DNA from: a virus
IMG/VR virus record: IMGVR_UViG_3300025450_000015
Span: 62,001 to 126,000 of that record
Direction: 5' to 3' (one strand)
DNA: 64,000 nt
Notes under the pieces: model-generated
Told to the model about the DNA's origin: nothing
The model's database searches: none
Seen by the model: the letters and a program-made list of their open reading frames with translations, nothing else
Translations under genes and position numbers: made by a program
Part shown: positions 1 through 45,058 of the stretch, one piece after another
How the letters are laid out: every line of letters begins with the position of its first letter
Numbering within the stretch: the first letter of the stretch is position 1

Positions 1-1
1 C

Positions 2-1729
2 CCTGTTAACGGTCAGTTACTAAGCCCTATCAGCGGGCAATCTAGCGGAAACCGTCCAGGACCAGCACGTACAAATTATTCCAGCTATTTGCCAGATGTG
101 TACACTGGTAGTCCAAACCGTATTGAACGTTATGCTCAATACGAAGTCATGGATAGCGATCCAGAAGTTAATGCGGCACTAGATATTCTTGCAGAATTCT
201 GCACACAAAAATTAAAAGATTCTAAGAGTCCATTTGCTATTAAATGGCGCAACAAAGCAACTAACGCTGAAATTAAAATCTTAGGTGAATATCTACAGCA
301 ATGGAACAAGCTACAACAGTTTGATACTCGCATGTTCCGTATTGTGCGTAACACATTCAAATACGGAGATGCATTCTTTGTACGTGATCCAGAAAATCAA
401 AAATGGAATTGGGTCGATTCTGCACAAATTATTAAAGTTATTGTAAATGAAAGCGAAGGTAAGAAACCAGAGCAGTTCATTATTAAAGATCTTGCTCCTA
501 ATTTTGAAAATTTAGTAGCAACACAGATCACTCCACAAGTTGGACCACGCCAAGGCGGACAAGGATCACAACCTAGCGGTGGAAATTTTGGTGGAAGCAC
601 AAGTGGCGGTCCAGGTGGTGGCAAAGGTCCTACTCCAGGCAACACTAGTCGCTTTGGTTTAAATCAAAAAGAATCTGCTGTCAATGCAGAACATGTCATA
701 CATTTAAGTTTGTCAGAAGGGTTAGACAACAACTATCCATTTGGCAACAGTTTATTAGAGAATATCTTTAAAGTTTACAAACAAAAAGAATTATTAGAAG
801 ATGCTATTCTAATCTATCGTATACAACGTGCTCCAGAACGCAGAGTATTCCACATTGATGTAGGTAATATGCCTCCGCATTTGGCCATGGCATTTGTAGA
901 ACGTGTAAAGAACGAAATCCACCAACGTCGTATTCCTTCACAAACAGGTGGAGGACAGAACGTCATAGACTCTGCATACAACCCTCTAAGCATTAACGAA
1001 GATTATTTCTTCCCTAAAACTCCAGACGGCAAAGGTTCCGACGTAACAATGCTAGAAGGCGGTAAGAATATTGGCGAGATTGATGACTTGAAGTATTTTA
1101 CTAACAAGTTATTCCGTGGATTGCGTATTCCTAGTAGCTATTTGCCTACAGGACAAGATGACAGTCAAAGCAATTTCAATGACGGTCGTGTCGGAACAGC
1201 ATACATTCAAGAACTACGTTTCAACAAATATTGCGAACGTTTGCAAAGTTTGTTAGTTCATATCTTTGATGAAGAGTTTAAACGCTTCATGTATTACAAA
1301 GGCATGAACATTGATCCTAATTTGTTTGAATTAAACTTTAATCCACCGATGAACTTTGCAAGTAGCCGTCAAGCTACTATCGATGCAGAGCGTATTAACA
1401 CCTTTAGTACCATCAGTGCATTGCCTTTCGTGTCAAAACGCTTTGCATTTAAACGTTTCCTAGCCCTAACAGACGAAGAAATTGCAGAAAATGAACGCAT
1501 GTGGGCAGAAGAAAACGGTCACGGTGAGCCAACTACTACAGATAGTCAAGGTGAATTGCGTGGTGCAGGGCTTAGTGCCGCTGGTATTGCAGGCGATTTA
1601 GCTGGTGCAAGCGATATGGAAGCACCTGAAGATATGCAAGGTCCTGAATCTGGTGAAGGTGCAGGCGGTGCAGTACCTCCTAGTACCGGCGGAGCAGGTG
1701 TAGCAGGTGGTGCTCAAGGACCGGTTTAA
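2..1729 (+). CDS. 20: Portal protein, T4 gp20-like (5' truncated by window edge)
   Basis: The product is the dodecameric portal vertex through which DNA enters and leaves the head. The reading frame is open from base 2, so the true start lies outside the window; 575 residues are visible, against 524 for all of T4 gp20. A TTG at 89 is only an internal codon. Visible family features include the N-terminal segment RIERYAQYEVMDSDPE, typical of T4-like portals, and the central FRGLRIPSSYLP segment. A Gly/Ser/Pro-rich insertion lies at about 545-655 and a Gly/Ala-rich tail occupies the last 50 residues; both look like flexible additions. It heads the order gp20 - small ORF - acidic protein - gp21 - gp22 - gp23, the T4 head-gene order, which supports the call. 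A late promoter box overlaps its stop region. Confidence 0.93.
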   Translation, partial: PVNGQLLSPISGQSSGNRPGPARTNYSSYLPDVYTGSPNRIERYAQYEVMDSDPEVNAALDILAEFCTQKLKDSKSPFAIKWRNKATNAEIKILGEYLQQWNKLQQFDTRMFRIVRNTFKYGDAFFVRDPENQKWNWVDSAQIIKVIVNESEGKKPEQFIIKDLAPNFENLVATQITPQVGPRQGGQGSQPSGGNFGGSTSGGPGGGKGPTPGNTSRFGLNQKESAVNAEHVIHLSLSEGLDNNYPFGNSLLENIFKVYKQKELLEDAILIYRIQRAPERRVFHIDVGNMPPHLAMAFVERVKNEIHQRRIPSQTGGGQNVIDSAYNPLSINEDYFFPKTPDGKGSDVTMLEGGKNIGEIDDLKYFTNKLFRGLRIPSSYLPTGQDDSQSNFNDGRVGTAYIQELRFNKYCERLQSLLVHIFDEEFKRFMYYKGMNIDPNLFELNFNPPMNFASSRQATIDAERINTFSTISALPFVSKRFAFKRFLALTDEEIAENERMWAEENGHGEPTTTDSQGELRGAGLSAAGIAGDLAGASDMEAPEDMQGPESGEGAGGAVPPSTGGAGVAGGAQGPV

Positions 1730-29900: not shown

Positions 29901-32900
29901 ACTACAACAACCAGCAATTTAATTACAGTTGCAACTACAACAGGCTTATCAGTTGGACAGCAAGTGTACTTCACAGGTACAGTATTTGGTAATATTGTTC
30001 CAAGCCAGTTATACTATATTGCAAGTATCCCAACACCTGGAACTAACGGTACAATTACTGTTAGTTTAACATTTGGTGGCGGTAATGTGGCATTGATATC
30101 AGCAACTGGTACAATGACAATGGCATTCAATAACGCAGGCGGACTATGGAATAATACTACATACTGGATTAATTCATTGCAATCTGCCGCAACATTAAGC
30201 ACATTGGCAATTACTAGTACAACAGGTGTATTCAGTTGTGCAACAAGTTCAGTAACATTAACAGTAGGACAGCCAGTTGTTATTACTGGTACGTTCTCAG
30301 CTGGTAGTATCACTGGTTATACTAGTGGTGCAACATATTATATTATTGGTAATCCAACATCAACAGCTTTCCAATTGTCAGCAACATTAGGCGGAAGTGC
30401 TGTAACATCAACAACATCAGGTGGAACAATTACTGGTATTACTGTAACAGTTCCTGCCGCAACATTAACATTGACCAACAGCTTTAAGAGTGGTACAGCA
30501 TACACAATTACTAATACAGTAACTGGTATGTCAGCTACAACCACTGCTGGAGCAACAGTGACATGGCCATATTTAAATAATCCAATGATTAATGGTTCAT
30601 TAACTTACAATGATAACGTTCTAACAATTCAAGGCACAGAAATTCTTCGTGCTAACATTCCATTCCTGGCCGCAGAAGCATCTGCTTATACAGTAGCAAG
30701 TTACGGCGGTACAGTATCCAGTATAACATCTGGTAGTGTTGTTAATACAAGTGGCGCACATAATTTATTAGTAAATGACCCAGTAGTGTTTACTGGTACT
30801 GTTGGTTCAAGCAATATTGTTGCTGGTACTACTTATTATGTTTTAACTGTGCCAAGCTCAACAACATTTACTATCAGTGCAACTCAATATGGCACAGGTA
30901 CACAAACAACATTTACATTAGCAACAGGTTCGTTAGGAAGTTTAACTGTAGGCTACTACTATAACTATGCTAAGTGTGTACGCGATACAACAAACTTTAT
31001 CAATGCGTTGATTTATGATATTAATTATACAGGTAACTGGAAATCAATGCGTGCCGCAGAACTTTATGTTAACGCGGTGGCAGGATCTACAACACAAAAC
31101 TTCTATCTAGTAAGAAATGCATGTGGTATTCGTAATCAAACTATGAACGGATTGACTGGTGTTTTAAGTACAGCAAATGCTTATGGAACACGTCGACCAA
31201 CAGCAGGTGCGTATGCAAGTTTAGATCCAGGCTTTGGACCAAACGATCAAAATGCATGGGTCTATGCACGTTCAACATTCGTACAAAATTGTACAATGTT
31301 CGGTTACGCTTGCGTTGGCGCCAAAGTTGACGGTGCATTGCATGCCGGTGGATACAAATCAATGGTTGCAAACGACTATACTTGTGTTATCGGCGATGGT
31401 ATCGGTTGGTGGACAACTGGAACAGGTTCATTATCAGAACTTGTTTCAGTGTTTAACTACTACAGCTACGCTGGATACATGAGTGAATTAGGAGGACGCA
31501 TTCGTGCTACTAACGGTAACAGTTCATATGGTACATACGGTGTAGTTGCCGAAGGTGTTGACACATTTGAAACTCCAATTTACGGTACTGTAAATAACAG
31601 AAGTTACGGACCTCAAGTTACTAACGTGGTTACAGATAGTACAACACAAATTTTACGTTTAGAATACGAAAATGCAGGTACAAACTACACCAATGCTATA
31701 CCAACAATTAGTGGATCAGGTTATAACATTCTTTCTTTTGCAGATGAGTTCCGTGATGCTGGTGTATTTGAATCACGTTTAATTGACTTAAACAATGGTT
31801 TAGGTGTTGGCGGTTCAAGTTATGTAAGTTCTGTTAACGTAGGCCAAGGCGGTGCAGTAGGTTATATTACTATTGCGGCAGCCGACGTAGCATTGACTGG
31901 TTCATATAACGGAATGAAAGTACAAATTACTGCTGGTACAGGTGTTGGACAATATGCGTCAATACTAACTTATACTAACGGTAGTAAAATTGCACAAATT
32001 ATTCGTACAACATTTGCAACCTTAACTGTTACCAGTTCAAGTACTACTGCATTAACTGTGGCAAGTACTGCAACATTATATGTTGGTATGCCAATTTACT
32101 TGAGTACAACCGCTACTAATATGAATTTGACTGCATATCAAGTTTATTATGTACAGGCTATTTCAAGTACAACTCAGTTTACACTAGCATTAACATCAGG
32201 CGGTTCTGCAATTACTGGTTTAACAGCAACTAGTGGACAAACAGTCAGCTTATATGCCGCTGGTTGGGATCATGTTGTACCAGGTACTCCTATAGTTAAC
32301 ACATTAGATTTAACTACAGCATATATTATTGAACCTTATGTTTCATTCACAGGTCCAGGTTATGCCGCAACAGCAAGAACATTACCAGCTACAGCAATCT
32401 GGTCAAGTATTACATACGGTGCTGGAAATTATGTAGCAATTGCCAATGGTAGTACATCGACTGCAATTAGCACTAACGGTAAAACATGGACTCCAGGTGG
32501 TGCATTAACAGCTTCTGCATTTACAAACGTTGTTTACGGTGGAGGTCAAAGTGCTGCCGCAACAGTAACACTAGGTGGATTTGGCGGATCTGGTGCTCAG
32601 TTGACAGCAGTGATTGGTACTGGAACAAGTTTAGGACAAGTAGTTGGAGTCAACGTAATTAACGGCGGTTACAACTATAATACTGCTCCATCATTATTGT
32701 TTACAGGTGGTGGCGGTACCGGTGCCCAAGGAACAGCAGTTGTTCTTAACGGAGTAATTCAATCAGTTATTATTACAGTTAATGGTTCTGGATATACTTC
32801 AGCACCGACTGTAACAGTTGTAACTAGTGCTATTACTGCGATTACTCCTATCACTTGGGGTAAAAATTATTTCAATAGCGGAAACGTTAGCGTAACAATC

Positions 32901-35900
32901 AGTGCTCCATTTAGTGGAACTGTTTGGAGTGGAAGTTCGAGTGCAACAAGTGGCTCATACTATTACTATTATAGTGGTGCAACTCAAGCTACAAACTATT
33001 ACCTAGCAACATCGAGCGGAACATTTTCATCAACTGCTCCAACGTTTACAACAGGTACAGGATCTGCAGGAACATATGGTGTGTCATTGACATTCGTAGG
33101 TACTGCCGCAACTGCAACTCCAACATTGACAGATTACGGTGTCAGCAGTTACACAATTACTAACATTGGTTACGGTTATACTGCAACTCCTACTATTACA
33201 ATATTAGATACTAGTGCTAAATTTGTTGCAATTTCTACAACAACTACAGCAACAGCTTATAGTACAGTAGCTAATTTAGGATCATCTTGGACTTCTGGTA
33301 ACGCACTTCCATCCGCTGGATTTAACAGTTTAACTTATGGTAACGGAATTTATGTTGCAGTTGGTTACACTGGAACAACATCTAATGCCAGTGCTATTAT
33401 TACATCTAGTCCAGACGGTGTTACATGGACTGGCAGAACAGCTCCAAGCGGTGCAACACAAGCGTTTACATCTGTGGCATTTGGCTGGACTGGACCAGGA
33501 TCTAGTGCAACAACTACAGGTATGTTTGTAGCTATCGCAACTAACAGTACATCAACAGCTTACAGTACTAACGGTTTAACATGGACTACTGGTGGTGCAT
33601 TACCGTCAGTTGCTAACTGGTCTAGCGTAACTTATGGTAACGGACGTTTTGTTGCAGTAGCCGCAGGTAGCAATATTGTTGCATACAGCAACAACGGTGG
33701 TGTAACTTGGTACTCAAGTGTAGCAAATAACGGTACATACTTACCATTAGCACAAAACTGGGGAATCTCATACGGAGAAGGACAGTTCTTTGCAACAGCA
33801 ACAGGACCAACTCCTACAATGACAGCTACTACTTCAAGTGGTAACTTGATTACATTAAGCAGTACAGCCGGTTTGAACGTAGGAAATACTATTGTTCCAA
33901 CAGCAGTGACTGAAACTACAGTGGCTAGTCAGACAATTAATGCAACAGCAATTGGATTGTCAACATCGTTTATTTCTAACGGTATTGCAGGCAACGCAGG
34001 TACAACATTAACTGCACCAGTTGGTTTAGGTCCGTTTGCACTAGGTATGTATTTGACTGGTTCAAATGTGACATCAGGAACTTACATTACTGGTAGCAAT
34101 ACATTTAATTCAACATCGTCAACGATTGCAGGATCTATATTGACCATTGGCGGTACAGTTACTGGTACTGGTACAACCAGTGCTTATAGTGTACAACCTG
34201 GAATGGCATTAACTGGCGCACAATTTAACACTACAAGTTCATACATTTGGAACACGTACTATCCAAGTGGTGTACAAACTGGTGTATTTGTACCAGCAGG
34301 TACAACTACTGGTGTAATTACAACAGGTAGTCAGTTGAGCGGTACAAATATAACTACTGGTGCTACTTATATTGTTTCAAATCCAACTACTTCAGGTAGC
34401 ACAATTACTGGAACAGCATCTCCAAGCACAGTAGTTACATTCAACGGTAGTGTTTCTATAGTTAACGGACAAGGTATTTTAACTGTGTCTTCAACACCAA
34501 GCGGTGTTGGTATTCAACCAGGTTATATTCTAAGTGGTACAGGTGTTACAGCTGGCACAACTATTGTTGCACCATACGGTTCATCAACAACTCCAACTAG
34601 CTCAACCGGTCAGTGGATTGTCAGCGTAGCAACAGTAGTTAGTTCAACTGCATTGACAGGCACACCATATGTACTTACAACAACTGGTACTATCAACAAT
34701 AATACATTAATACCAGGTATGGTATTGGCTAGTACAGGCGGTACTGGTACAATTACCGCTGGTACATATATTACTGGACAAATCAGTACTACAAGTAGTG
34801 CGGTAGGTACAGGTACAGGAGTAAGCGGAACAATTGGTACTACTACACTAGTAATATCTGGTTCATCGACTGGATTCGCTGTAGGACAATTAATTACTGG
34901 CGGTAGTTTGTTCTATAACACTTATGTAGTTGCTGTTTCAGTTGCAACCAACACAACAATTACATTAAGTCAGCCATTATATGCAACAATCGGTGGCGGA
35001 ACATACAACGGTTATATTCCTGGTACTGCTGGACAATACTTTATTAGCACTACTAGTTTAGTAACCAGTGTTACTGTAACCGGTAATGCATGGGTAGCTA
35101 ACACTGGCTCATTAGTTCCATCTACAACAATAACAGGCGGATTGACTGCTTATATTGCATATCAAAATACAAGCTCTGCAAGTGCAGTAGCAAGTCCAAG
35201 TTGGGCATCTGGTGGTACTATTGGTGCAAGTTCTTTTGTTGTTAATACTGGAACAGGTATCGTAGCAGGCCAATTAATTATTGGTACAGGCATCCCATCA
35301 GGAACAGTAGTAGCAAGTTCATATGTTCCTGGTAGTACAACAGTTCCATTAGCCGTGGGAGTCGCAGGAGGCGCGGCGGCAACTATTGCTGGGTCAAATG
35401 CTACTGGTACTTATAACTTCTATACAGCAGGCGGAACTGGTACATACACATTGAATACTAGTGCATTAACTATTTCAAGTGCTCAGACAATTGGCGGACA
35501 AAGCTGGACAATTACTCCAAGTCAAACAGCGGCAGCTGGTGCAATCACTGGTACACAAAATACAATTACAGTTGGAAACACAGCCGGTATGTCAGTGGGC
35601 GAACCAATAGTGTTTACGAGTAATATTGTTAGCACAACATTGACTACAACAGCCGCTACTGGTAACTTGTTAACAGTTGGTACAACTGTTGGTATGGCGG
35701 TAGGTGCTCCAGTCGTGTTTACAGCAGTGACCCAAACTGGTAATATTACTTCTACATCTAGTACTGGTAACACAATTACATTGAACTCAACTACTGGTTT
35801 AGTACAAGGTGAAACTATTGTGTTCACAGCAGTTAGTCAAACAACTACATTAACTGCTACAACTAACGGATCATTTACATTATCAAGTTCTAGTATTACT

Positions 35901-38597
35901 AACAGTATATTAACTGTTGGTACTTTGAGTGCAGGTACAATCACTCCAGGAGCTGTTATTTCAGGTGGTAGTATTCCTGCTGGAACATATATTATATCAA
36001 ATATATCTGGTAGTGGTAACGGTAGTACTTGGAACGTAAGTACAAGTTCAGGATTTACACAAACTAGTACAAGTATTACAGGTACATTAAACATTATCAC
36101 TGTTAACTCTAACAGCGGTATGTTAATTGGTGAAACATTTACAGTTGCTACTAACGTAGGTAACTTGATTTCAGGTAACACATATTATATTACTAAAACT
36201 ATTAGTACTAACCAGCTTGCTGTAGGTACTGTGTATGGTGCCACAAGTGATTTGACTTTAGTAACAACTACTGGTCAAAGTGTTAGCGTAACAGCTGGTG
36301 CGACATTAGGCGGCGGTAATTTAACAGCTAGTACTACATTCTATATCACTAGTGTAGCAGGCAGTAATATTACAATTAGTACAGTATACAATGGTTCATC
36401 GGTAACTATTGCTAACGGTACAGGTGTATGGACATTTGTAGCAGGTGCCGCTTTTGGTAGTATTACAAGCGGTACAACATACTACGTTACAAGCATTCCA
36501 ACTCCGGGTGTAAACGGTACAATCACTGTAAGTACAACTTATGGCGGTTCTAACTTAACTGTAACAAACGGAAATGGATCATGGTCAGTAACTGAAGGTG
36601 CAACATTTGGTGGATTAACATCCGGCTCGACATATTTCATTACTGAAATTGTTGGAAGTACACTAATATCAGTAAGTACAATTTATGGTGGAACCAATGC
36701 GGTAGTTACTAACGCTGGCGGATCTTGGACTGCACAAGCAGGTTCATTATTTGGTAACTTGATTTCAGGTAATACATACTATATTGCTAGTATTGCAGGC
36801 AATCAGATTACTGTAAGTGCAAGTAGTACTTTATCTCCAGTAATTACATTAGTTAATGACACAGGTGCATGGACAAGTACAATTGGTACAAACATCGCGG
36901 CAACAAGTTGGGACGGTATCAACTGGACACAGCAAACATTGCCAACATACGCAAGTTGGATCACTCCATCATTTGGTAATCCATTAGTTACAACAACTGG
37001 TTACACACCACTATGGGTAACCGCAAGTAACCAATCTGGTACAGTAGCGGCAAGTATTCATACCGGTGCAACACCGTTGGCACGTACAAAAGTAGCTAGT
37101 GGTGCTTTAACTGAAATACGTATGATTGAACCAGGCAGTGGATTTGCTAAAGGTGTTGTTACTGGAACTACGTATGTTGCTGGTACAACAGTTACCGTAA
37201 CAGCCGTATCTGGAAATTCAATTACAATCGGTGCAACCAATTTAACAATTGGCCAACCAATTACATTTGCTACTGGGTTTGGTAACGTAGTTGCAAACAC
37301 AACTTATTATGTACAAGTAACAAGTTCAGGTACAACACTAACTATCAGTTCAACTTATTATGGTAGTCCATTTAATGCAGGTACTGCAAGTAGCATATCA
37401 GTAGCTGGTACAGTTGGACCATTGAATTTAATTACTGTAGATCAAACAGAAAACATGTATAATCTACAACCAATTGAATTCAATACTGTAAGCTCTGGCG
37501 GATTAAGCACACAAACAACTTACTATGTAATTGGATCAACAATTCAATCTACTACATTCCAAGTTGCAACTTCATCTGCATTGGCAACAATTGGTACTAG
37601 TGTTACATTAACAACAAGTACTCCAACTGGTATGCAATATACAACAGGACCAACATTAACTATTACCGATCCTAACCAAGTTAACAAAGCACCAACTCGT
37701 GTACGTACAGGTGATGGTGTGTTAGGTAACCCAAGTTTCCCATGTCGTGGTGCTGGAAATGCAACAGCAACAGCAAGTATTACTGGCGATGGATATGCTG
37801 ATATCTACCAGAATACAGCATTTATTAACGTTGCTAATTTATATGCATTACCTGCCGCAGGTGCTAACGTACAGTTCAGCAGTATTTCTAACGCATGGTA
37901 CAAACTAGTTGCTACAAGTAATCAATTAGGACAAGCAGGTAACTATACTGCTACATTCCAAGTAAGTCCAAGTCTAACAACTTATCTTGCTCCACCGAAC
38001 GGTGCATTGATTACTACAAGATTGAAATACAGTCAAACACGTTTAACTGGACATGACTTCTTGTATGTTGGCTCAGGTAACCAAACACAAACTAACTATC
38101 CAAACGTTACTGATGCAAATGCAATTCAGGCTAACCAAACATATCCAAATATTGGTGGTCGCGTATTCTTTACATCAACTGACCAAGACGGTAACTTTAA
38201 CGTTGGTAACTTGTTTGGAGTTCAACAAGCGACTGGTACAGCTACATTGAATGCCAACGCATTTAACTTAGCTGGATTACAGAGTTTGACACTAGGTTCA
38301 GTAAGTTTAGGTGTAAATAGTGCAACGATTACGCAATTTAGTACAGATCCGTACTTTACTGCTAATAGTGACAATATTTTACCAACACAAAAAGCTATTA
38401 AATCTTACATCACAGCCCAAATTGGTGGCGGATCAAGTAGTTTGAACGTAAATACACTAACGGCAGGACAGATATACATAGCTGGTAATACTATTAGTAA
38501 CCTAAATGGTAATCAAATTTATGTTAGCAGTAAGATGCTGTTCACAGGCGGAATTGACGGTGCTCCTGTAGCTACCGTATTCTTCTTATCAAGATAA
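23925..38597 (+). CDS. Giant adhesin/tail-fibre protein (4890 residues), paralogue of the 15353 product
   Basis: One uninterrupted frame of 14.7 kb. The N-terminus (KLGRIKFVYQGTWTTGTGYV) and a series of CBM5/12-like units match the preceding giant. A beta-helix-like region starts near residue 758 (IVYVSSTTGVDS) and includes VVPSYTSIIGDELRGT. The conserved GGYKSMVANDYT / GGRIRATNGNSSYGTYG block is at about 2395-2565, propeller-like repeats at about 2820-3290 (VTYGNGRFVAVAAG), and the C-terminal block from about 4700 (GHDFLYVGSG, STDQDGNFNVGNLFGVQQAT). The extra length comes mainly from many more copies of the module SGTTYYV...TITVSTTYGG between residues 1500 and 4600. It has its own late promoter. 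Probably a very long fibre or adhesin. Confidence 0.85.
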   Translation: MAQFKLGRIKFVYQGTWTTGTGYVVDDVVTVGGRTYICTTSNTASATFATDFSSGYWSVVADGSRWTGNWTNNQYYLVNDQVLYGGVVYLCTTAHTSASSTATITPTAATANGTTATLTFTALSSNIQPFLVGASITVSGFSAQTGFNGTFTVTACTATTVSYALAQSLTGTVMGTVSGTGTLGLEVNQSNWTSFASSFNWTGAWTINTRYKYNDLVSYGGLNYICNTAHVSANTTTLGLEANQSSWTVFNTGVAYQGLWNGNSTHYRINDIVKYGASLWICTTAHTSSGTFASANFSVFVNGLEYVSGGNNAWVGSITLTAASASGGTATLSFATQSAIPFAVGQSITVSGVTPSSFNGTFIVTGTPTTTQVSYALAGSLTGSVFGTVAANYVTGDIVSYGGNLYTAIASNTATTPSTGTASWQVFSTGFSFQGDWSGLTSYKIGQVVRLGGYTYMAMADNAQQTIIANQTSSGSNSVSVSATGSLVANLPIVFSGTSFGNIVSGTTYYVGTIIDSTHITLLTSSGGSTLAVTNATGSLTGTTQSQPPFSTYWTRLNAGIRWNAGTTQSYNGLSGTNITAAGSGAQFNVTTSGTTYSVTVKSGSQGTGYSASTTLKILGTQVGGISPANDITITITGVTAGAINLSSGITWTGYSVTWITASNYVLGDVVYFGANSYICVSAHTSASGNRPDADTTGTYWNLLASGAESAVLTTQGDLAYYGTNGPTRLPVGTDGQILRVGGTIPSWAYYGQINNIVYVSSTTGVDSLGASQGTTIDKPWATIRYACYQIENGYLNTNTTGLLSINKQFMLKEINNYVYYSYSFNVTGTSVQTITVGGTSSIAQTVTTNMYSGMPIVFTQTSGNIVAGTTYFVAQVINSTSFNIATTYANATAASPTLFTVGTGSANIGTYSYNQAKTERDTGTVIDGLLFDIGRGGNYKTTTNALAYFANSTTFATNVNAYDIPPFVSALNYLNTLATNYVLTNTSAAVSYQSTVWPGVTITGASGTGAVATITFATQPYVYPVGQFITVAGVNPSGYNGTYIVVASTLTSVSYASTTTTSYVSGGTVNVARATQQINTGYTAELTGVARVANLISIITSPLTLGYTTNVQPAATPNTTIFVKTGTYNEVLPIVVPSYTSIIGDELRGTVVQPAGPNLNMINDKTRSINSLTRIQSLIPNLLQNTAITPTSGNTQYLTVTGASGTGSVATLTFASQTSAPFNVNQYITVTSVNPSGYNGSYIVTAVTTNSVSYTSTTSASYVSGGVVSGQATGLPAGDVGSTTVVNQINTSVSLINDMIYNGLPKTPAITIPQLTGYNTSYLVGFGYGITQIQNNYLFIKAEIAAYLNTYYSSVWTTFGGTNQTETLRDIGFVLDGLQYDMTYGCNNQSIINGSSYYSLQIPQILASYNAATVGALQRLQAIISQIVTGTSVTATSGNSVTQSTGGSAGSAAAASFAAGRVGDVIYWLQNATSNATTLTLVGSVSGTTLTVTSGTGNGIYIGSMLTGTGVVAGTYIVNQLTSSASATAATTLASGGSAGTNTFVVSSATGIAAGQLITGTNLPAGSYVSSSYISGTSITVVNAFGAPQNFTSTGGTGAYLFYPANGAGTYTLSTSGNTGTTFTALSTFTPVTSGAYALVTNQYLQTAYNNLIARQTEIASDAQVWVQKYYQAYPISQSLTQRDAGYIALALAWDVLFGTNFNSIACGRAFNRLNASALALVANTNQELNATTGAITFIGFKAKQIASAGSTVQAQTLIDDIVTKINGQVAFNTVGSAILAGTQTIAYGTADVITVTTSGGTATFSVSLTPATTGQTITYITAGGLATFSSAQTLVKGTSVTLAAAAGGMSAGTYYVTTGVNNSFTVSLSSSYANAVAGTPGSFTGGTVTGAVGVVTIGTYYNTIASVTVTSGGNWNNTSLYSAAQATTTTSSGQGLTLSLGFVSSSYSTTVAGVQTSSNIVTLGSTAGMPTNMPITFSGLPALGSVTATATTTTSNLITVATTTGLSVGQQVYFTGTVFGNIVPSQLYYIASIPTPGTNGTITVSLTFGGGNVALISATGTMTMAFNNAGGLWNNTTYWINSLQSAATLSTLAITSTTGVFSCATSSVTLTVGQPVVITGTFSAGSITGYTSGATYYIIGNPTSTAFQLSATLGGSAVTSTTSGGTITGITVTVPAATLTLTNSFKSGTAYTITNTVTGMSATTTAGATVTWPYLNNPMINGSLTYNDNVLTIQGTEILRANIPFLAAEASAYTVASYGGTVSSITSGSVVNTSGAHNLLVNDPVVFTGTVGSSNIVAGTTYYVLTVPSSTTFTISATQYGTGTQTTFTLATGSLGSLTVGYYYNYAKCVRDTTNFINALIYDINYTGNWKSMRAAELYVNAVAGSTTQNFYLVRNACGIRNQTMNGLTGVLSTANAYGTRRPTAGAYASLDPGFGPNDQNAWVYARSTFVQNCTMFGYACVGAKVDGALHAGGYKSMVANDYTCVIGDGIGWWTTGTGSLSELVSVFNYYSYAGYMSELGGRIRATNGNSSYGTYGVVAEGVDTFETPIYGTVNNRSYGPQVTNVVTDSTTQILRLEYENAGTNYTNAIPTISGSGYNILSFADEFRDAGVFESRLIDLNNGLGVGGSSYVSSVNVGQGGAVGYITIAAADVALTGSYNGMKVQITAGTGVGQYASILTYTNGSKIAQIIRTTFATLTVTSSSTTALTVASTATLYVGMPIYLSTTATNMNLTAYQVYYVQAISSTTQFTLALTSGGSAITGLTATSGQTVSLYAAGWDHVVPGTPIVNTLDLTTAYIIEPYVSFTGPGYAATARTLPATAIWSSITYGAGNYVAIANGSTSTAISTNGKTWTPGGALTASAFTNVVYGGGQSAAATVTLGGFGGSGAQLTAVIGTGTSLGQVVGVNVINGGYNYNTAPSLLFTGGGGTGAQGTAVVLNGVIQSVIITVNGSGYTSAPTVTVVTSAITAITPITWGKNYFNSGNVSVTISAPFSGTVWSGSSSATSGSYYYYYSGATQATNYYLATSSGTFSSTAPTFTTGTGSAGTYGVSLTFVGTAATATPTLTDYGVSSYTITNIGYGYTATPTITILDTSAKFVAISTTTTATAYSTVANLGSSWTSGNALPSAGFNSLTYGNGIYVAVGYTGTTSNASAIITSSPDGVTWTGRTAPSGATQAFTSVAFGWTGPGSSATTTGMFVAIATNSTSTAYSTNGLTWTTGGALPSVANWSSVTYGNGRFVAVAAGSNIVAYSNNGGVTWYSSVANNGTYLPLAQNWGISYGEGQFFATATGPTPTMTATTSSGNLITLSSTAGLNVGNTIVPTAVTETTVASQTINATAIGLSTSFISNGIAGNAGTTLTAPVGLGPFALGMYLTGSNVTSGTYITGSNTFNSTSSTIAGSILTIGGTVTGTGTTSAYSVQPGMALTGAQFNTTSSYIWNTYYPSGVQTGVFVPAGTTTGVITTGSQLSGTNITTGATYIVSNPTTSGSTITGTASPSTVVTFNGSVSIVNGQGILTVSSTPSGVGIQPGYILSGTGVTAGTTIVAPYGSSTTPTSSTGQWIVSVATVVSSTALTGTPYVLTTTGTINNNTLIPGMVLASTGGTGTITAGTYITGQISTTSSAVGTGTGVSGTIGTTTLVISGSSTGFAVGQLITGGSLFYNTYVVAVSVATNTTITLSQPLYATIGGGTYNGYIPGTAGQYFISTTSLVTSVTVTGNAWVANTGSLVPSTTITGGLTAYIAYQNTSSASAVASPSWASGGTIGASSFVVNTGTGIVAGQLIIGTGIPSGTVVASSYVPGSTTVPLAVGVAGGAAATIAGSNATGTYNFYTAGGTGTYTLNTSALTISSAQTIGGQSWTITPSQTAAAGAITGTQNTITVGNTAGMSVGEPIVFTSNIVSTTLTTTAATGNLLTVGTTVGMAVGAPVVFTAVTQTGNITSTSSTGNTITLNSTTGLVQGETIVFTAVSQTTTLTATTNGSFTLSSSSITNSILTVGTLSAGTITPGAVISGGSIPAGTYIISNISGSGNGSTWNVSTSSGFTQTSTSITGTLNIITVNSNSGMLIGETFTVATNVGNLISGNTYYITKTISTNQLAVGTVYGATSDLTLVTTTGQSVSVTAGATLGGGNLTASTTFYITSVAGSNITISTVYNGSSVTIANGTGVWTFVAGAAFGSITSGTTYYVTSIPTPGVNGTITVSTTYGGSNLTVTNGNGSWSVTEGATFGGLTSGSTYFITEIVGSTLISVSTIYGGTNAVVTNAGGSWTAQAGSLFGNLISGNTYYIASIAGNQITVSASSTLSPVITLVNDTGAWTSTIGTNIAATSWDGINWTQQTLPTYASWITPSFGNPLVTTTGYTPLWVTASNQSGTVAASIHTGATPLARTKVASGALTEIRMIEPGSGFAKGVVTGTTYVAGTTVTVTAVSGNSITIGATNLTIGQPITFATGFGNVVANTTYYVQVTSSGTTLTISSTYYGSPFNAGTASSISVAGTVGPLNLITVDQTENMYNLQPIEFNTVSSGGLSTQTTYYVIGSTIQSTTFQVATSSALATIGTSVTLTTSTPTGMQYTTGPTLTITDPNQVNKAPTRVRTGDGVLGNPSFPCRGAGNATATASITGDGYADIYQNTAFINVANLYALPAAGANVQFSSISNAWYKLVATSNQLGQAGNYTATFQVSPSLTTYLAPPNGALITTRLKYSQTRLTGHDFLYVGSGNQTQTNYPNVTDANAIQANQTYPNIGGRVFFTSTDQDGNFNVGNLFGVQQATGTATLNANAFNLAGLQSLTLGSVSLGVNSATITQFSTDPYFTANSDNILPTQKAIKSYITAQIGGGSSSLNVNTLTAGQIYIAGNTISNLNGNQIYVSSKMLFTGGIDGAPVATVFFLSR

Positions 38598-38978: not shown

Positions 38979-40949
38979 ATGGCACGTTATAATACATCGC
39001 TGGCAACAGAAATTGTTTCCGGAGCACAAACTCTGTTAACACCTGCACAAGGTGGTTACACAGAATTTCAAGGATCTGCACCGTACACGGTGGTTATCCC
39101 AGGACCAACATTATTTTTAGGACAGTCGCAAAGTTATTTTAACAACACTAGTGGTGTTGTTACACTTTCTGCTCCTAGCGGATATATTGCTGGTAGTCCT
39201 AGTTCTCCGGTGTTTAACGGACCAGGTGGTTCTAGTACAAACTTATTGGCCATGCCAGCAGGATCTAGTTGTATTATTGGATCTGATGGTACTAACTATA
39301 GTATAATTACATTCCCAGGCGGTAATCAATTTGGTATTAACGGAACTTTTTCAGCTGATTTGATTAGTACCAATACTGGTACCACCAATATCTACAATAC
39401 AAATACTCAGACAGTTAACTTTGCAGGCGCGGCAACTAGTATCAATATTGGTTCTAGCACTGGTACAACTACTATTAACAATCAATTGTTAGTAAAAGGC
39501 GGAACAGTTGTTCTTAACTCTAGTTCAGTACGTACAGAAGATAAAAATATTGAAATTGGATATGTTAATCCAGTTACTTATGGTGGCGGTACTGTTACAA
39601 CTATCGGTGGTGCGTTAGGCGGTAGTACAACATTTACAAGTATTACTGGTACAAAAGTAACTGGTGCAGGTACATACAGTGGTGTTGGACAATTTGCTAC
39701 AAGTGGTAGCGGATCGGGTGCAACTTTTAACATCACTACAACTGGGTCAGGTACAACTTATACTGGTGTAACTACAATTACATTGGTTAATCCAGGAAGT
39801 AACTATGCAATCAATGATACAATTACTATTGGTGGTAACTTACTTGGTGGTACTAATAGTCCTAACAACTTAACATTCACTGTAAGCAACGTTAACTACA
39901 GTCCTTGGATTGCAACTATTACCGGTATGCCCAACACTACCAACTTGGTAAACGGTCAAGCTGTTAGTGCAACTAACGGTACAGGTAGTTTAGGCGGCGG
40001 CGGTACAAGTTATGTAATAAGCAACATTGTAAGTGGAACTAGTATTCAGGTAACAGTAACAGGCGGCACAACTCCTGTAGCTGGTACAATTACAGCTATT
40101 ACTCCAGGTAGTGCTGATACATTTGCCAACGGCGGCGGCATATTATTATATGGAACTAGTAATCACACATTACAATGGGCAAGCAGTACATTAGGTCCAA
40201 CAAGCGGTGGCGGTAACCCAGCTTGGGTTAGTTCAGAAGGGTTGTATATCAATACTTCTAATACATTTGGTATTCAAAGTGGTAGCAACGTTAACTTTAA
40301 CTTATTGACCAACGGTCAAGCTACTGGTACTGTTAACATTGCAACCAACGCTGGTACAGGTAACTTGTTTACTGGAGCAAGTTCAGCAGTTAACATTGGT
40401 GCTAGCGGTGGTACTGCTACAATCAGCAACACTAACTTTACAGTTGGACAGTCTGGTGGTACAGTTACTTTTAACGGTATTACAACTTTCACAATGAATA
40501 GCGTAACAGCGTTTAACTTAACTGGCGGCGGTACAATGAATGCTGGTAGTACATATGGTTATTTTAGTTCGCTAGGCGTTGGTACTAACACTAACGGTGG
40601 TGGTGGTACAATTTATGCGGCAAACAACATTGTTGCTTACTACTCAGATGACAGATTAAAGACACGTTTGGGCAAAATTGAAGATGCTCTTGCTAAGTTA
40701 GAAACATTAAATGGTTTTTACTTTGAAGCTAACCAAACTGCTCAGGATTTGGGATATACTGTTCAACGTGAAGTTGGAGTTTCTGCTCAAGAAGTTAATG
40801 CAATCCTGCCAGAAATTATCAAACCAGCTCCAATCGACGCTAAGTACATGACAGTTCAGTACGAAAAGTTATTACCATTAGTGATTGAAGCAGTTAAGGA
40901 ATTGTCAAGCCAAGTTAAAGAATTAAAAGCACAGATTAACAAGGAATAA
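38979..40949 (+). CDS. Tail fibre/spike with C-terminal S74 intramolecular chaperone
   Basis: A 656-residue fibre. The N-terminal part contains beta-rich fibre repeats (TSINIGSSTGTTTINNQLLV, EDKNIEIGYVNP). A copy of the locus-wide GATFNI...GGNLLGG module lies at about residues 245-300. The last 100 residues are a peptidase S74 (endosialidase-type) chaperone: YYSDDRLKTRLGKIEDALAK, GYTVQREVGVSAQEVNAILP, YMTVQYEKLLPLVIEAVKEL, then a coiled coil. Members trimerise the fibre and then cut themselves off; the expected cut here is Ser556/Asp557. It lies immediately upstream of the Asn/Cys-repeat and radical SAM genes. Confidence 0.92.
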   Translation: MARYNTSLATEIVSGAQTLLTPAQGGYTEFQGSAPYTVVIPGPTLFLGQSQSYFNNTSGVVTLSAPSGYIAGSPSSPVFNGPGGSSTNLLAMPAGSSCIIGSDGTNYSIITFPGGNQFGINGTFSADLISTNTGTTNIYNTNTQTVNFAGAATSINIGSSTGTTTINNQLLVKGGTVVLNSSSVRTEDKNIEIGYVNPVTYGGGTVTTIGGALGGSTTFTSITGTKVTGAGTYSGVGQFATSGSGSGATFNITTTGSGTTYTGVTTITLVNPGSNYAINDTITIGGNLLGGTNSPNNLTFTVSNVNYSPWIATITGMPNTTNLVNGQAVSATNGTGSLGGGGTSYVISNIVSGTSIQVTVTGGTTPVAGTITAITPGSADTFANGGGILLYGTSNHTLQWASSTLGPTSGGGNPAWVSSEGLYINTSNTFGIQSGSNVNFNLLTNGQATGTVNIATNAGTGNLFTGASSAVNIGASGGTATISNTNFTVGQSGGTVTFNGITTFTMNSVTAFNLTGGGTMNAGSTYGYFSSLGVGTNTNGGGGTIYAANNIVAYYSDDRLKTRLGKIEDALAKLETLNGFYFEANQTAQDLGYTVQREVGVSAQEVNAILPEIIKPAPIDAKYMTVQYEKLLPLVIEAVKELSSQVKELKAQINKE

Positions 40950-40952
40950 ACG

Positions 40953-41354
40953 ATGACAACTCCTTCAAGTCCTATTTATATTAGTCAAATTGACGGCGAA
41001 ATTGGACTGCCTAACAGCAGTCCATACAGCAATTTGAGTAATCTTAATGGATATGTAATTCCAGGACAACGTGATAGTTACCCAACTATGAACGAAATGC
41101 GTAACAGAGCATACTATCGTTCAAATAACAAGGGTAATTGCAACAACGGAAATTGTCCAAATAATTGTAATTGTGGTAACATTTGCTGTACAAACTGTTA
41201 TAATTGTAATAACATCAATTGCACAAATTGCGATGGTCAAAACTGGTTACAAAACAACTGTAATTGCAACTGCACTTACAACTGTAACATTAATACCAAC
41301 GTATATTATAACTGTAATTGTAACTGTAATTGTAACTGTAACTGTAACTGCTAA
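40953..41354 (+). CDS. Asn/Cys-repeat protein, candidate tail-tip protein and maturase substrate
   Basis: A 133-residue protein in two parts. Residues 1-60 look like an ordinary leader or attachment domain: IYISQIDGEIGLPNSSPYSN and PTMNEMRNRAYYRS resemble the N-terminal element of many phage Gly-rich tail-tip proteins. Residues 61-133 are almost only Asn and Cys with a few Gly, Tyr and Thr; I count 21 Cys, the last seven at alternate positions 121-133, ending the protein on Cys. The gene starts 4 nt after the S74 fibre stop and 19 nt before a radical SAM-SPASM gene. A modified, cross-linked repeat is one reading; a metal-binding CxC tail is the other. No close family is recognised. Confidence 0.75.
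   Translation: MTTPSSPIYISQIDGEIGLPNSSPYSNLSNLNGYVIPGQRDSYPTMNEMRNRAYYRSNNKGNCNNGNCPNNCNCGNICCTNCYNCNNINCTNCDGQNWLQNNCNCNCTYNCNINTNVYYNCNCNCNCNCNCNC
41309..41351 (+). repeat. Hexanucleotide Asn-Cys repeat
   Basis: Seven consecutive copies of AAC/AAT-TGT/TGC encode the Asn-Cys run ending the protein at 40953. Synonymous AAT/AAC variation breaks perfect identity, so the pattern is probably selected at protein level. Confidence 0.85.
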
Positions 41355-41372
41355 TATACCACAAGGAATCTT

Positions 41373-42839
41373 ATGATTTTTGAAATACTGACAGAAAAGT
41401 TTGGATCAAACCCACCTGATCTAAGAACGTTCTTCTATGACAACGAAAAAAATGTCTTAAGCGATGAAACAGGATTCGTCTATGAGTATCCCGATGCTTA
41501 TGCAAATAATTTTGAAAATCGAGTACCATACAAACCATTTGATAAAGATCGTCCTTTAATTAAATCTCGCAGTACTAATCACGTAAAAATTCAACTAGGA
41601 TTAAGTTGTAATTATAGTTGTGATTATTGCAGTCAAAAATTTGTGGAACGCCCACGTGAAACTAATGCTAAAGACATTGAAAATTTTATGGAAATGTTTA
41701 AGACTTTAGAGTTTAACGAAGAAGACGGTTTACGAGTTGAATTTTGGGGAGGTGAACCTTTAGTTTACTGGAAGACATTAAAACCCCTGGCCGAAGCAGT
41801 AGCAGAATTTTTTAAAGATTGGAGAAAGAAACCAGTTTTTAGTATTATTACTAATGGTAGTATTTTAACAGAAGAAATCTGTGCTTGGCTATACAGTATG
41901 GAATTCCATGTAGCTATCAGTCATGACGGGCCAGGACAACATGTACGCGGACCAGATCCATTTGCAGATCCTAAGAAACGTGAAATTATTTTAGATTTAT
42001 ACCAGATTTTGCGTCCTTTAAATCGCATCAGTTTTAACTCAATGTTAAACAGACAAAATCTTAGTCGTAAAGCTATATTTGATTATTTTATTAATTTTAC
42101 AAATGATCCCAATGTTAGTTTAGGTGAAGGTACCTTTGTAGATGCATATGATGCCGATGGCCTACAACACAGTTTACAAACTAAACAAGATCATTTCGAA
42201 TTTAGAAAAATCGCGTTCGGAGAAATTTACGGATCTAACGGTGAAATCGGCTTTGGCAACATATTACAAAAAGTTGATAATTTCACAGAATCAGTATTGA
42301 CCCATCAGCAAGCAGACTATTTAGGTCAAAAATGCGGCATGGATGACGAAAGAACCGTTGCATTTGATTTAAACGGCAATGTAATTACTTGCCAAAATGT
42401 CAGTGCTATCGAAATTAACAAAAACGGAGAACCTCACTTAGGTGGTAAGATTACTGAGATCGAGGACGTAAAAATTACTACTAGTACACACTGGAGTAAT
42501 CGTGCAGAATGTCCAAGTTGTCCAGTGTTGCATATTTGTAAAGGTGCATGTATGTTCCTTTCAGATGAATTCTGGACTACAAGTTGCAATAACGCCTATA
42601 GCGATAACGTACCATTGTTTGCCGCAAGTATTGAAAAAATAACAGGTGGTTATGTTCCTTACCATATTAAGGGCAAAGGATTACCATTAGAGCGCCAAGA
42701 TATCTGGGGCGGTGTATTCAAACACGAAGAAGAAAAGAAAAAAATAATACCTATTAAGATTGTCAGTGAAAAAGTTGCTGTAATCGACAATGTCGAAGTT
42801 TACGGTAAGAGTTCCTTGATAAATACTGAACAGGAATAA
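41373..42839 (+). CDS. Radical SAM-SPASM enzyme, peptide/protein maturase-like
   Basis: A 488-residue cytoplasmic enzyme. The radical SAM cluster motif is C79-x3-C83-x2-C86 (SCNYSCDYC), with the SAM-binding GGEP at 126-129 and an ISHDGPG segment. The C-terminal SPASM domain fits the canonical seven-cysteine pattern: C321-x13-G-x4-C340, then C380-x2-C383-x5-C389-x3-C393, then C405, expected to hold two auxiliary 4Fe-4S clusters. This architecture is typical of sulfatase-maturing enzymes and RiPP maturases forming thioether or C-C links. No sulfatase is in the window; the Asn/Cys-repeat protein is 19 nt upstream, so it is the best substrate candidate. The substrate is inference. AAGGA precedes the ATG. 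Confidence 0.9.
   Translation: MIFEILTEKFGSNPPDLRTFFYDNEKNVLSDETGFVYEYPDAYANNFENRVPYKPFDKDRPLIKSRSTNHVKIQLGLSCNYSCDYCSQKFVERPRETNAKDIENFMEMFKTLEFNEEDGLRVEFWGGEPLVYWKTLKPLAEAVAEFFKDWRKKPVFSIITNGSILTEEICAWLYSMEFHVAISHDGPGQHVRGPDPFADPKKREIILDLYQILRPLNRISFNSMLNRQNLSRKAIFDYFINFTNDPNVSLGEGTFVDAYDADGLQHSLQTKQDHFEFRKIAFGEIYGSNGEIGFGNILQKVDNFTESVLTHQQADYLGQKCGMDDERTVAFDLNGNVITCQNVSAIEINKNGEPHLGGKITEIEDVKITTSTHWSNRAECPSCPVLHICKGACMFLSDEFWTTSCNNAYSDNVPLFAASIEKITGGYVPYHIKGKGLPLERQDIWGGVFKHEEEKKKIIPIKIVSEKVAVIDNVEVYGKSSLINTEQE
42818..42825 (+). promoter_or_regulatory. Possible late box GATAAATA within the radical SAM 3' end
   Basis: Late-type octamer inside the last codons of the radical SAM gene, 27 nt before the ATG at 42853. 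It could drive the unknown gene and the halogenase-like gene separately. Confidence 0.4.
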
Positions 42840-42852
42840 GGAATAGCAGATC

Positions 42853-43848
42853 ATGAATTTAACTCAAAATTTAATACAGTTTCAACATTCGCAGTTGATA
42901 GCACTAGATATAAAATTTACTGACACTGGATTTCAGTGGACAGTATTTGATGCCTATAAAAAATCAGAATTGCAGTTGGAATGGGCTAGTTTAGCAGATA
43001 ATACCGTTACTGCTAGAAAAGTAGCCGGAGTTAGATATCCAAGCCCTGCTGACGAATTTGCATGGGAAACAGAAACACATAGAGTTTATAGTCAAACTTC
43101 AGGAGTCTATCCTGGTGTAACAGCAGGAATTTCTGGAGAAATAAATTGGACAGATATTACCAACAATGAGGGATTTTCAGATCATGCTATTTTTGCAATC
43201 ACTCACCCAGCTGACCAAGTTACTGTAAGAAATTTAAATGTAAGATACGTTCAACAAACTGCTTTGAATACAAGAACAGGTATCCCATTATACAATTTAG
43301 TAGCCAATTCACAACTACATAAGAAAAATCCAGTTAGGGCAATGTCTTTGCAAAAGAATAGTCCTATGATTTTAATTTCTATTCCGTTTGCAGAAATGAA
43401 TCCATCAGATTGGAACATGATGGTTGCGTTGGGCGATAGCGATCCTGGCCTAGTAAGAATATCGTCAGGCGAACAATTCACAAATGTAATCACCGACGAG
43501 CTTGGCAGAATCGTATATACTATGCCAAAAGTTTATTTTACAAATAAGACTGCTACTGTCAGCCCAGACGGCTATGTCGATTTACCGTTTTACTTAGGAA
43601 CTCCTACCGATTTAAATCCCCCAGCAAAAACAAGCTCTGAGCATGGATTGCCTATAACGGATCACAATGCAACTATATATTTAAAAACTACGGCAGGTCA
43701 CTTGAATAAACAACAAGTACAAACAGTCAACGGTGTAGGAACTGTTCGTTTAATTGCAACACATCTTGTTCCAGGTGACACTATCACAGTAAGTTGTGGT
43801 TTTCAATATTGGTCAGGATCAGACGACTGCGTTATAACCGTACAATAA
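42853..43848 (+). CDS. Unknown beta-rich protein in the radical SAM/halogenase cassette
   Basis: A 331-residue protein I do not recognise. The first part has Trp-containing strands (TDTGFQWTVFDAYKKSELQL). The last 90 residues (TIYLKTTAGHLNKQQVQTVN, VRLIATHLVPGDTITVSCGF) look like an immunoglobulin-like beta domain of the sort common in fibre and baseplate proteins. It has no signal peptide. It lies between the radical SAM gene and the halogenase-like gene with gaps of 13 and 7 nt, so it belongs to that unit. It could be a structural protein, the second substrate, or a binding partner. Confidence 0.65.
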   Translation: MNLTQNLIQFQHSQLIALDIKFTDTGFQWTVFDAYKKSELQLEWASLADNTVTARKVAGVRYPSPADEFAWETETHRVYSQTSGVYPGVTAGISGEINWTDITNNEGFSDHAIFAITHPADQVTVRNLNVRYVQQTALNTRTGIPLYNLVANSQLHKKNPVRAMSLQKNSPMILISIPFAEMNPSDWNMMVALGDSDPGLVRISSGEQFTNVITDELGRIVYTMPKVYFTNKTATVSPDGYVDLPFYLGTPTDLNPPAKTSSEHGLPITDHNATIYLKTTAGHLNKQQVQTVNGVGTVRLIATHLVPGDTITVSCGFQYWSGSDDCVITVQ

Positions 43849-43855
43849 GGTTTTT

Positions 43856-45058
43856 ATGAAAATAGGCATTATAGGTAGTGGTACCGCCAGCGCCGTTTCA
43901 TTACTTGCAATTTTTGATAAATTTAAATTCCATAGATGCAAACACATAGATGTGTATTGCATATACAATCCTGACATTCCTGTAACTACTGTGGGCGAAA
44001 GTACTAGCCCTATAATGCCTAGTTTACTTTATCATGCTATTGATTTTTCTGTTACTGAAGAATTAAAAGAGTTCGATGGTACCCTTCGCTGGGGTACTCG
44101 TTACTACTGGGAAGATATTAATGATAAAAATTTCCTAGTAAGGCATGGACATACAGGATTGCATGTCAACAGTGAAAAATTTAGCGGATTTGTTATCAAC
44201 AAACTTGATAAATTATACGATAATTTTTTTCAAATACACGGTAATGTCTCAGACATAACACAAGATCATACTCACGTATCGATATTAGTCGACGGAGTGC
44301 AACATAAATTTGACTATATCATCGATTGTAGAGGATCACCGTCGGCCGAAGAAATGGATAGTGGACTATACGAATTTCCAAAATTTGAAACAGTTAACTC
44401 AGTAATACTATTTCCTGACTTTAAAGAGTATAACGAAGATTTAACAAGTGCATATCCACATGACGACGGCTGGATGTTTGGAGTACCATTAACTCATCGT
44501 AAAGCCTTTGGTTATCTATATAATAAAAATATAACAACTCAGGAAGAAGCGATTGAAAAATTTTCTAAATTAAAAAATATTGATGCTAGTAAATTAAGAA
44601 AATTTAGCTGGAGACAGTATTATAAAAAAGAAGCAATGAATGGACGCATATTATCCATGGGTAACAGACTATATTTTCTTGAACCTGCACAAGCATTGCC
44701 GTTACATTTTTATATAAATTTGTCTGTAGAGTTTATTGAAACATTAATTAAAGGTACTAATTTACAAACACCGCATTTTAATAGAGGAATTAATACTTCT
44801 TATCTTAAAAGTATGGAAGATATGTTGAATTTAGTTGCACTAAACTATGTAGGTCCTTGCAAAAAAGATACGCCTTTCTGGAATACAGTCACAGCACTGG
44901 CTAAAGAACGTTTACAAACATCGGAAAGATTTCAAAAATATGTAAGATTGTGTCAGCAGACTGGAGAATACGAGCAGTATTGGGCACACAATTCAGCCTT
45001 GATGAAAGAATATATCGAAGGCTTTGATATTAAACTAGATCAACTAAGTCAAATATAG
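43856..45058 (+). CDS. Flavin-dependent halogenase-like FAD protein
   Basis: A 400-residue protein of the tryptophan-halogenase type. It has the FAD-binding GSGTAS (7-12) after a hydrophobic strand, VGEST (46-50) matching the family's GEAT/GEST motif, DYIIDCRG (153-160) at the second FAD site, GWMFGVP (205-211) in place of WxWxIP, the following HRKAFGYLYN, and FLEPAQALP (274-282) near the substrate site. A viral halogenase of this superfamily is known from a cyanophage (VirX1). The lysine that activates hypohalite appears replaced by Arg78 (TLRWG where the family has TFK), and WxWxIP is altered, so activity may differ or be lost. Substrate unknown. AAGG precedes the ATG. Confidence 0.75.
   Translation: MKIGIIGSGTASAVSLLAIFDKFKFHRCKHIDVYCIYNPDIPVTTVGESTSPIMPSLLYHAIDFSVTEELKEFDGTLRWGTRYYWEDINDKNFLVRHGHTGLHVNSEKFSGFVINKLDKLYDNFFQIHGNVSDITQDHTHVSILVDGVQHKFDYIIDCRGSPSAEEMDSGLYEFPKFETVNSVILFPDFKEYNEDLTSAYPHDDGWMFGVPLTHRKAFGYLYNKNITTQEEAIEKFSKLKNIDASKLRKFSWRQYYKKEAMNGRILSMGNRLYFLEPAQALPLHFYINLSVEFIETLIKGTNLQTPHFNRGINTSYLKSMEDMLNLVALNYVGPCKKDTPFWNTVTALAKERLQTSERFQKYVRLCQQTGEYEQYWAHNSALMKEYIEGFDIKLDQLSQI

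Follow-up and report, generated by a model that had tools for sequence, protein, structure and literature searches.

A phage tail-tip protein ending in alternating cysteines and its linked radical SAM/SPASM enzyme as a probable substrate-maturase pair

The locus

A gene for a protein with alternating cysteines and a gene for a radical SAM/SPASM enzyme lie side by side in the window, the whole stretch of 64,000 nucleotides that was analysed, which forms part of a 153.7-kb virus record in IMG/VR. The features discussed here are as follows.

38979..40949, + strand: tail fibre with a C-terminal Peptidase_S74 chaperone domain, directly upstream of the Cys protein (PHROG and Pfam matches)
40953..41354, + strand: alternating-Cys tail-tip protein, the putative substrate, 133 aa with 21 Cys (alignments)
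40953..41117, + strand: leader-like N-terminal domain of this protein, approximately residues 1-55 (alignments and AF2)
41310..41351, + strand: its C-terminal (Asn-Cys)7 run (translation and codons)
41373..42839, + strand: putative radical SAM/SPASM maturase, 488 aa (PF04055, TIGR04085, phrog_1802 and AF2)
42853..43848, + strand: 331-aa protein with an Ig-like C-terminal half (label given by inspection)
43856..45058, + strand: FAD-dependent tryptophan-halogenase-like protein (PF04820 and phrog_2928)

The window also codes for a T4 gp15-type tail sheath stabiliser, a tail sheath, a tail tube and a terminase. Together with the S74 fibre, these identify the region as the structural module of a contractile-tailed phage, and the tail context proposed in an earlier reading of this DNA from its letters only (the sequence-only reading) is borne out by the S74 fibre upstream and the structural genes around the pair. 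The Cys protein itself can be classed as putatively tail-structural: it sits in the tail module and some of its relatives are fused to S74 or Hint domains. The 331-aa protein has no Pfam or PHROG match. Two giant ORFs are also present, one of 4,890 aa (23925-38597, fibre-like by inspection) and one of 2,845 aa (15353-23890).

The Cys-repeat protein

The protein of 133 residues contains 21 Cys and 38 Asn and is laid out as a leader of approximately 55 residues, a Cys domain and a terminal (NC)7, which occupies the final 14 residues. This agrees with the strict Asn-Cys alternation described in the sequence-only reading, which had given the distance to the enzyme gene as 19 nt (the measured spacing is 18 nt). 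The longest alternating run has 7 Cys; when the same residues were shuffled 200,000 times, 7 of the arrangements reached this length. The repeat is written in mixed codons (AAC and AAT, with both TGT and TGC) and, in five of seven homologue pairs (three of these five share members), dN in the Cys region is far below dS; in the remaining two, dS is saturated. The repeat is therefore a feature of the protein, and the mixed codons and purifying selection rule out chance or a simple repeat as its source. A six-frame scan of ORFs of at least 60 aa identified no second ORF in the window with an alternating run of at least four Cys.

No match to the Cys protein was obtained in Pfam, PHROGs or NCBIfam. 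In alignments, the leader domain of its relatives starts with MTLPxSGxIxxSDxNxExG, and AF2 models the leader domain with a confidence of 59-78 (10-residue means). The Cys region is unstructured in the model, with a confidence under 50, and for this reason the model was left out of the fold search. When the NC proteins were compared as a profile with the PDB, a cytochrome c555 trimer came up at E 5e-4 with no stretch passing, and this match was put down to chance.

The radical SAM/SPASM enzyme

The 488-aa protein matches Radical_SAM (PF04055) above the curated cut-off, with its CxxxCxxC motif at C79/C83/C86, and is the sole CxxxCxxC ORF over 150 aa in a six-frame scan of the window. Its remaining conserved cysteines (C321-x13-G335-x4-C340, C380-x2-C383-x5-C389-x3-C393 and C405) have a spacing that we take to be the seven-Cys SPASM pattern for two auxiliary clusters, and the NCBIfam SPASM model TIGR04085 scores 30.6 against a cut-off of 27. 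All ten cysteines (three of CxxxCxxC and seven of SPASM) are kept in 109/109 non-redundant relatives (<80% identity), so that the full SPASM pattern seen by the sequence-only reading is both present and invariant. The enzyme also matches phrog_1802, 'radical SAM domain-containing protein' (E 7e-62), for which PHROG states neither function nor substrate.

The AF2 model of the enzyme is of high quality (pLDDT 92.9, pTM 0.89). Its closest PDB folds are 5why (Z 24.4) and 5wgg (Z 23.9), followed by ChlB and anSME; the epimerase EpeE is also found, with a lower Z of 12.8. Both of the closest entries carry the title 'Structural Insights into Thioether Bond Formation in the Biosynthesis of Sactipeptides', and the enzyme in them is presumably CteB. 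Residues 1-47 form three strands and a helix that fall inside the 5why alignment (1..425 against 3..448), and the Pfam and NCBIfam matches include no PqqD or RRE model. The best match in a BFVD fold search is an 'Fe-S oxidoreductase' of a metagenomic podovirus, from which no function was gained.

The top NCBIfam models are PapB (74.1 bits), QhpD (69.2) and a geopeptide maturase (66). No curated NCBIfam equivalog cut-off is reached by the window enzyme (PapB NF047865, 340; QhpD TIGR03906, 453; geopeptide, 400). At E<=1e-10 the PapB model matches 64/64 aligned members, the geopeptide model 63/64 and the QhpD model 57/64.

Pairing in virus records

The sequence-only reading had proposed looking for co-occurrence of the two genes in related phages. 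In IMG/VR the pair is general, whether the scan starts from the enzyme or from the repeat, and the idea of a one-off in this genome is ruled out by the many virus records in which it is found. Among the virus contigs listed, the situation that the sequence-only reading had named as refuting its proposal, a maturase widespread in related phages with no Cys repeat, was not encountered.

The forward set comprises 83 viral loci among the matches listed, 82 found through the enzyme and one (L025) through the Cys protein. Since a C.C.C.C regular expression missed proteins with shorter runs, an HMM combined with reading by eye was used. The HMM identified the Cys domain in 77/83 of these loci. Two more (L048 and L068) have, directly downstream of the enzyme, a protein of the same type with 14 and 15 Cys, below the HMM threshold. 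This gives 79/83 loci with a Cys protein among the matches listed, and the remaining four are cut off by record ends (L015, L029 and L032 start inside or at the enzyme and L049 ends 256 nt after it). These counts include near-identical phages; 109 enzymes remain below 80% identity. The Cys gene lies approximately 9-30 nt upstream of the enzyme gene or downstream of it, in one case behind a fatty-acid-desaturase gene (L050). The arrangement is not fixed (the Cys gene may be upstream or downstream, at a distance of one to three genes), yet the pairing persists.

The reverse scan, blind to the enzyme, searched IMG/VR for DNA encoding NCNCNCNC and gave at least 119 stretches. Of 118 NCNCNCNC loci examined, 101 have an in-frame ORF of at least 50 aa and 17 do not. 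Genuine cases and simple repeats were first distinguished by eye with the enzyme column visible (of 94 loci taken as genuine, 86 had the enzyme and the remaining 8 were cut by the record end), and the sort was then redone with a fixed rule that allows no more than 20 aa between NCNCNCNC and the end of the ORF. This rule retains 89 loci among the matches listed, with the enzyme in 73 loci and elsewhere in the record for 9. In the other seven records the DNA stops 75-1,423 nt past the repeat; in four of these, what remains includes genes related to the Ig-like or 2OG-Fe(II) ones (best E each <=5e-20) that precede the enzyme in other loci. Ten of the enzyme matches score just 41-152 bits, either because they are divergent or because a contig end cuts them short. 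A further 12 loci have NCNCNCNC further in: four with the enzyme, one (L488) cut by the record end and seven with no enzyme in the whole record, these seven being simple repeats or internal tracts as judged by eye. In the four with the enzyme, the repeat is followed by a CSKIIC domain (L387), S74 (L458), a Hint-like domain (L485) or 56 residues (L385).

Two other repeat-first scans gave the same picture. The pattern (xC)8 yielded seven genuine cases among at least 120 stretches, six with the enzyme and the seventh cut by the record end. A profile of the NC domain identified the enzyme in 79 of its best 80 loci, the exception again being cut by the record end. No testable counter-example, that is, a repeat with no enzyme, was found among the virus records listed in these scans. 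Forward and reverse scans alike show a dedicated Cys-rich candidate substrate gene linked to the enzyme, the arrangement expected of a RiPP system. Of the RiPP-type pairing put forward in the sequence-only reading, the linkage and the nature of the enzyme as a peptide maturase are strongly supported; cross-linking, stiffening of the tip and presence in the virion are what we infer.

One locus was excluded from the (xC)8 count (L288, 7615-9478). It encodes a 191-aa protein with a CTCTCTCT run at its end, a CTCTCT tail, and is followed directly by a radical SAM gene that is distantly related (29 bits). It is possibly a variant in which Thr replaces Asn.

Cultured phages and bacterial loci

The pair also occurs in cultured phages, namely the Achromobacter phages JWF and 2-1, and in many bacterial, prophage-like loci. 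These two phages (three records) are the only cultured-phage matches that cover 80% of the enzyme; ten further phage records give partial matches with 24-30% identity. In both JWF and 2-1 a fibre encoded two genes upstream of the enzyme (gp028 in JWF) has an NCNCDCNC(NC)SC run leading into a Hint domain, and the JWF enzyme, gp030, is a member of phrog_1802. A family that includes the JWF protein annotated 'central tail fiber J' occurs near the enzyme in 29/80 bacterial loci, and prophages are therefore the favoured origin of the bacterial loci.

In the genome_contigs set, an ORF with alternating Cys lies within 4 kb of the enzyme in 54/80 loci. Among the 26 loci with no such repeat, 13 have less than 2 kb upstream. 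Five (L164, L167, L168, L170 and L174) have only enzyme ORFs of less than 900 nt, and in one of them (L170) the fibre still ends NCNCDRNCGC. By eye, another (L100) looks rearranged, its fibre running without a break into a 2OG-type gene as though a deletion had joined the two, and a further one (L145) has non-tail gene surroundings. Six are real exceptions, with the enzyme and no repeat: four in Variovorax and a gammaproteobacterium and two in Bacteriovorax, at 30-34% identity. They fall at two places inside an enzyme tree made by a quick method. In three of the four Variovorax-type exceptions a short peptide containing DCGC or DCS is encoded just upstream, and a Bacteriovorax locus (L154) combines ABC-transporter genes with a PqqD gene that scores above the cut-off, the ordinary RiPP layout. 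Since the exceptions look like peptide systems, they support the reading of the enzyme as a maturase and show that the linkage is not universal. Judged from their genes, this enzyme lineage would also serve apparent peptide systems.

The tract as a C-terminal tag

We sorted 207 distinct enzyme-linked proteins among the matches listed (22 rows were placed by hand). Most (145) end no more than 18 residues after the alternating run, whereas 62 extend further: 49 into a helical domain starting with CSKIIC, 11 into a domain of the Hint type and 2 into Peptidase_S74. The residue between cysteines is N, A or D at 773/823 positions (Asn 519, Ala 176 and Asp 78). Pfam recognises S74 (L038) and Hint (L002) above the cut-off and Hint below it in two cases (L099 and L375); the other Hint and S74 domains were assigned by motif. 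A protein of the CSKIIC type (L039) has no Pfam match; this domain recurs after the Cys tract in 49 proteins (L024, L035-L043 and others).

Hint and Peptidase_S74 domains cut themselves off, and because of this self-removal the Cys run would become the mature end in these proteins. Several of the free-ending proteins finish with ...CACACW, and the two S74 proteins read ...CACFW-SDD and ...CDCLF-SDD. In having S74 (two fibres) or a Hint-type domain (eleven) directly after the Cys run they resemble other capped tail fibres; they differ in that self-removal would expose an alternating-Cys tract as the new end, one that comes with a putative maturase of its own.

When E<=1e-5 and 50% overlap are required, the parts that precede the tract separate into 16 groups, five of them with at least five members. 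At E<=0.01, single linkage joins 194/202 of these N-terminal parts, which speaks against an independent origin of all the fibre families. Since the 16 groups appear only at the stricter threshold, we claim a portable tag and not independent origins. As far as can be judged from the proteins themselves, tail fibres of several types share the repeat as a general tag at the C-terminus.

Accessory genes

Neighbouring genes were surveyed at 168 maturase loci (single-linkage clusters within 6 kb). Relatives of the 331-aa Ig-like gene occur in 51/168 loci and, in many bacterial loci, lie between the fibre gene and the maturase gene. Genes of the 2OG-Fe(II) type occur in 78/168 loci, with a second set in 25; PF13759 was found on these genes above the cut-off (L034), below it (L108) or not at all (L103). 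The halogenase-like gene occurs in 23/168 loci and has relatives in 62 phage records, mostly of cyanophages; the 13 phage records matched by the enzyme include no cyanophage. An obligate partnership was rejected, as the gene is in just 23/168 loci yet has relatives in 62 phage records, and it is possibly an accessory that is not specific to the system. That the tail protein might be a substrate of the halogenase-like protein (43856-45058) is a thought only.

A second, smaller radical SAM gene adjoins the main maturase gene in several phages and one bacterial locus (L283, 4695-5711; L290, 1738-2760; L134, L403, L404 and L486). In L283 it encodes 338 aa and is Radical_SAM by Pfam.

Discussion

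The enzyme and the repeat are linked in a near-obligate manner, the repeat is placed C-terminally and the Fe-S ligands of the enzyme are intact. Alternating-Cys tail ends beside an enzyme of a cross-linking type suggest that these phages may chemically modify their own tail tips. We have high confidence that the enzyme and the tag are related, and think it likely that the two genes encode a tail-tip or tail-fibre substrate and its dedicated radical SAM/SPASM maturase, in a RiPP-like arrangement. Radical SAM/SPASM enzymes make peptide natural products and cofactors, and their combination with a Cys-rich partner is already known. What is new, as far as the searched literature shows, is the putative role of a virion tail tip as that partner: in open-access PMC articles, no paper was recognisable as describing the pairing of Cys tag and maturase.

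The closest known systems are CteB and PapB (ranthipeptide/SCIFF), which share the radical SAM and SPASM domains and the Cys-dense substrate encoded next to the enzyme, and one of which provides the closest fold (5why). The differences are that the window enzyme scores 74 bits against the PapB cut-off of 340, that the putative substrate is the C-terminus of a tail protein and not a small peptide and that the putative acceptors are N, A or D at every second position and not CX3D/E. QhpD joins Cys to Asp/Glu by cross-links made within an enzyme's structural subunit. It is likewise a radical SAM/SPASM enzyme and the second-best NCBIfam model, and here too a protein would be modified and not a small peptide. 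The window enzyme differs from it in score (69 bits against 453), and QhpD has no phage context and makes isolated cross-links rather than acting on an alternating tract.

In the proposed mechanism, the enzyme would recognise the Cys tract or the domain before it, generate a 5'-deoxyadenosyl radical and take hydrogen from the alternating Asn, Ala or Asp or from neighbouring residues. Thioethers from Cys sulphur to carbon would then close within one chain or between the chains of the fibre trimer, and the product might be a rigid cap, resistant to proteases and reduction, where the tail meets the host. Removal of any Hint or Peptidase_S74 domain that follows would leave the tract as the mature tip, and 2OG-Fe(II) or FAD enzymes encoded beside some copies may add further oxidation. 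We lean towards a thioether as the bond, somewhat more than towards other chemistries, because the closest enzymes make it and because N, A and D all offer alpha- and beta-hydrogens. PapB, a characterised thioether enzyme, takes Cys-Xn-Asp with n from 0 to 6 (PMC9413430), which makes dense linking chemically reasonable; it joins Cys to Asp/Glu and not to Asn or Ala (PMC9413430), which counts against the reading. A cross-linked trimer tip is rather doubtful. The wider picture, which we offer tentatively, is that tail fibres of several kinds bear an (N/A/D-Cys)n tag that a radical SAM/SPASM enzyme would zip into a thioether-laddered strand, perhaps between chains, with Hint or S74 caps and optional 2OG-Fe(II)/FAD tailoring; this would be a widespread and unrecognised viral chemistry.

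A radical change with no cross-link, such as epimerisation of every second residue or dehydrogenation of Asn/Asp, would fit the strict period of two, with N, A or D at nearly all alternating positions. Polytheonamide-type peptides acquire alternating D and L residues by epimerisation, and the EpeE fold is among the structural matches. However, the constant residue in the tract is Cys and not its partner, and the seven-Cys SPASM pattern and the closest models and folds (PapB, QhpD and CteB) point to thioethers; we consider this explanation unlikely.

In a second alternative the tract would be a metal- or Fe-S-binding tip, with metallothionein-like CxC, and the enzyme would act elsewhere or help indirectly. 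Alternating CxC is a good set of thiolate ligands, the tract is disordered in an AF2 model made with no ligands and metal ions at phage spike tips are known. The linkage of enzyme and repeat in the testable virus records, across fibre types, is left unexplained by metal binding, which appears quite improbable as the whole account.

It is very unlikely that the enzyme modifies some other phage or host molecule and merely shares a host-recognition cassette with a fast-evolving fibre: the cassettes do hold 2OG-Fe(II) and halogenase-like genes (the latter also in cyanophages with no enzyme match), the six bacterial exceptions have the enzyme alone and radical SAM cassettes have been noted in pelagimyophage host-recognition clusters (PMC7029224), but the linkage follows the short repeat itself and not any one fibre family, it stays when gene order varies and the enzyme is missing from the seven repeats that were considered not to belong to a tail context.

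If the enzyme is a maturase for the virus's own tail tip, radical SAM/SPASM chemistry would extend to virion assembly, there would be a reason for radical SAM genes beside tail genes in some phages and the family would have a short, portable C-terminal tag as its apparent substrate, which could be useful for protein cross-linking. The two cultured Achromobacter phages make the system testable now.

Variant arrangements

Several loci depart from the simple arrangement of one tagged protein and one enzyme. In L030 (311-1405) approximately 200 Gly-rich residues, adhesin-like by inspection, separate the leader from the Cys domain. Two or three different Cys-tagged proteins accompany a single maturase in L025 (4778-5626), L418, L432, L438, L470 and L487. 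In L382 (3051-10408), L388, L423, L430 (G016) and L445 there is a protein of 65-80 aa ending ...YxTACNCNCNCNC or similar, and L382 has up to four radical-SAM-like ORFs in a single cluster. L457 (1768-4792) encodes two CQSxCQTCQG-type repeat proteins with NCNC/CDC tails, with radical SAM matches on either side and an apparent stand-alone Hint-type gene, identified by eye, between them.
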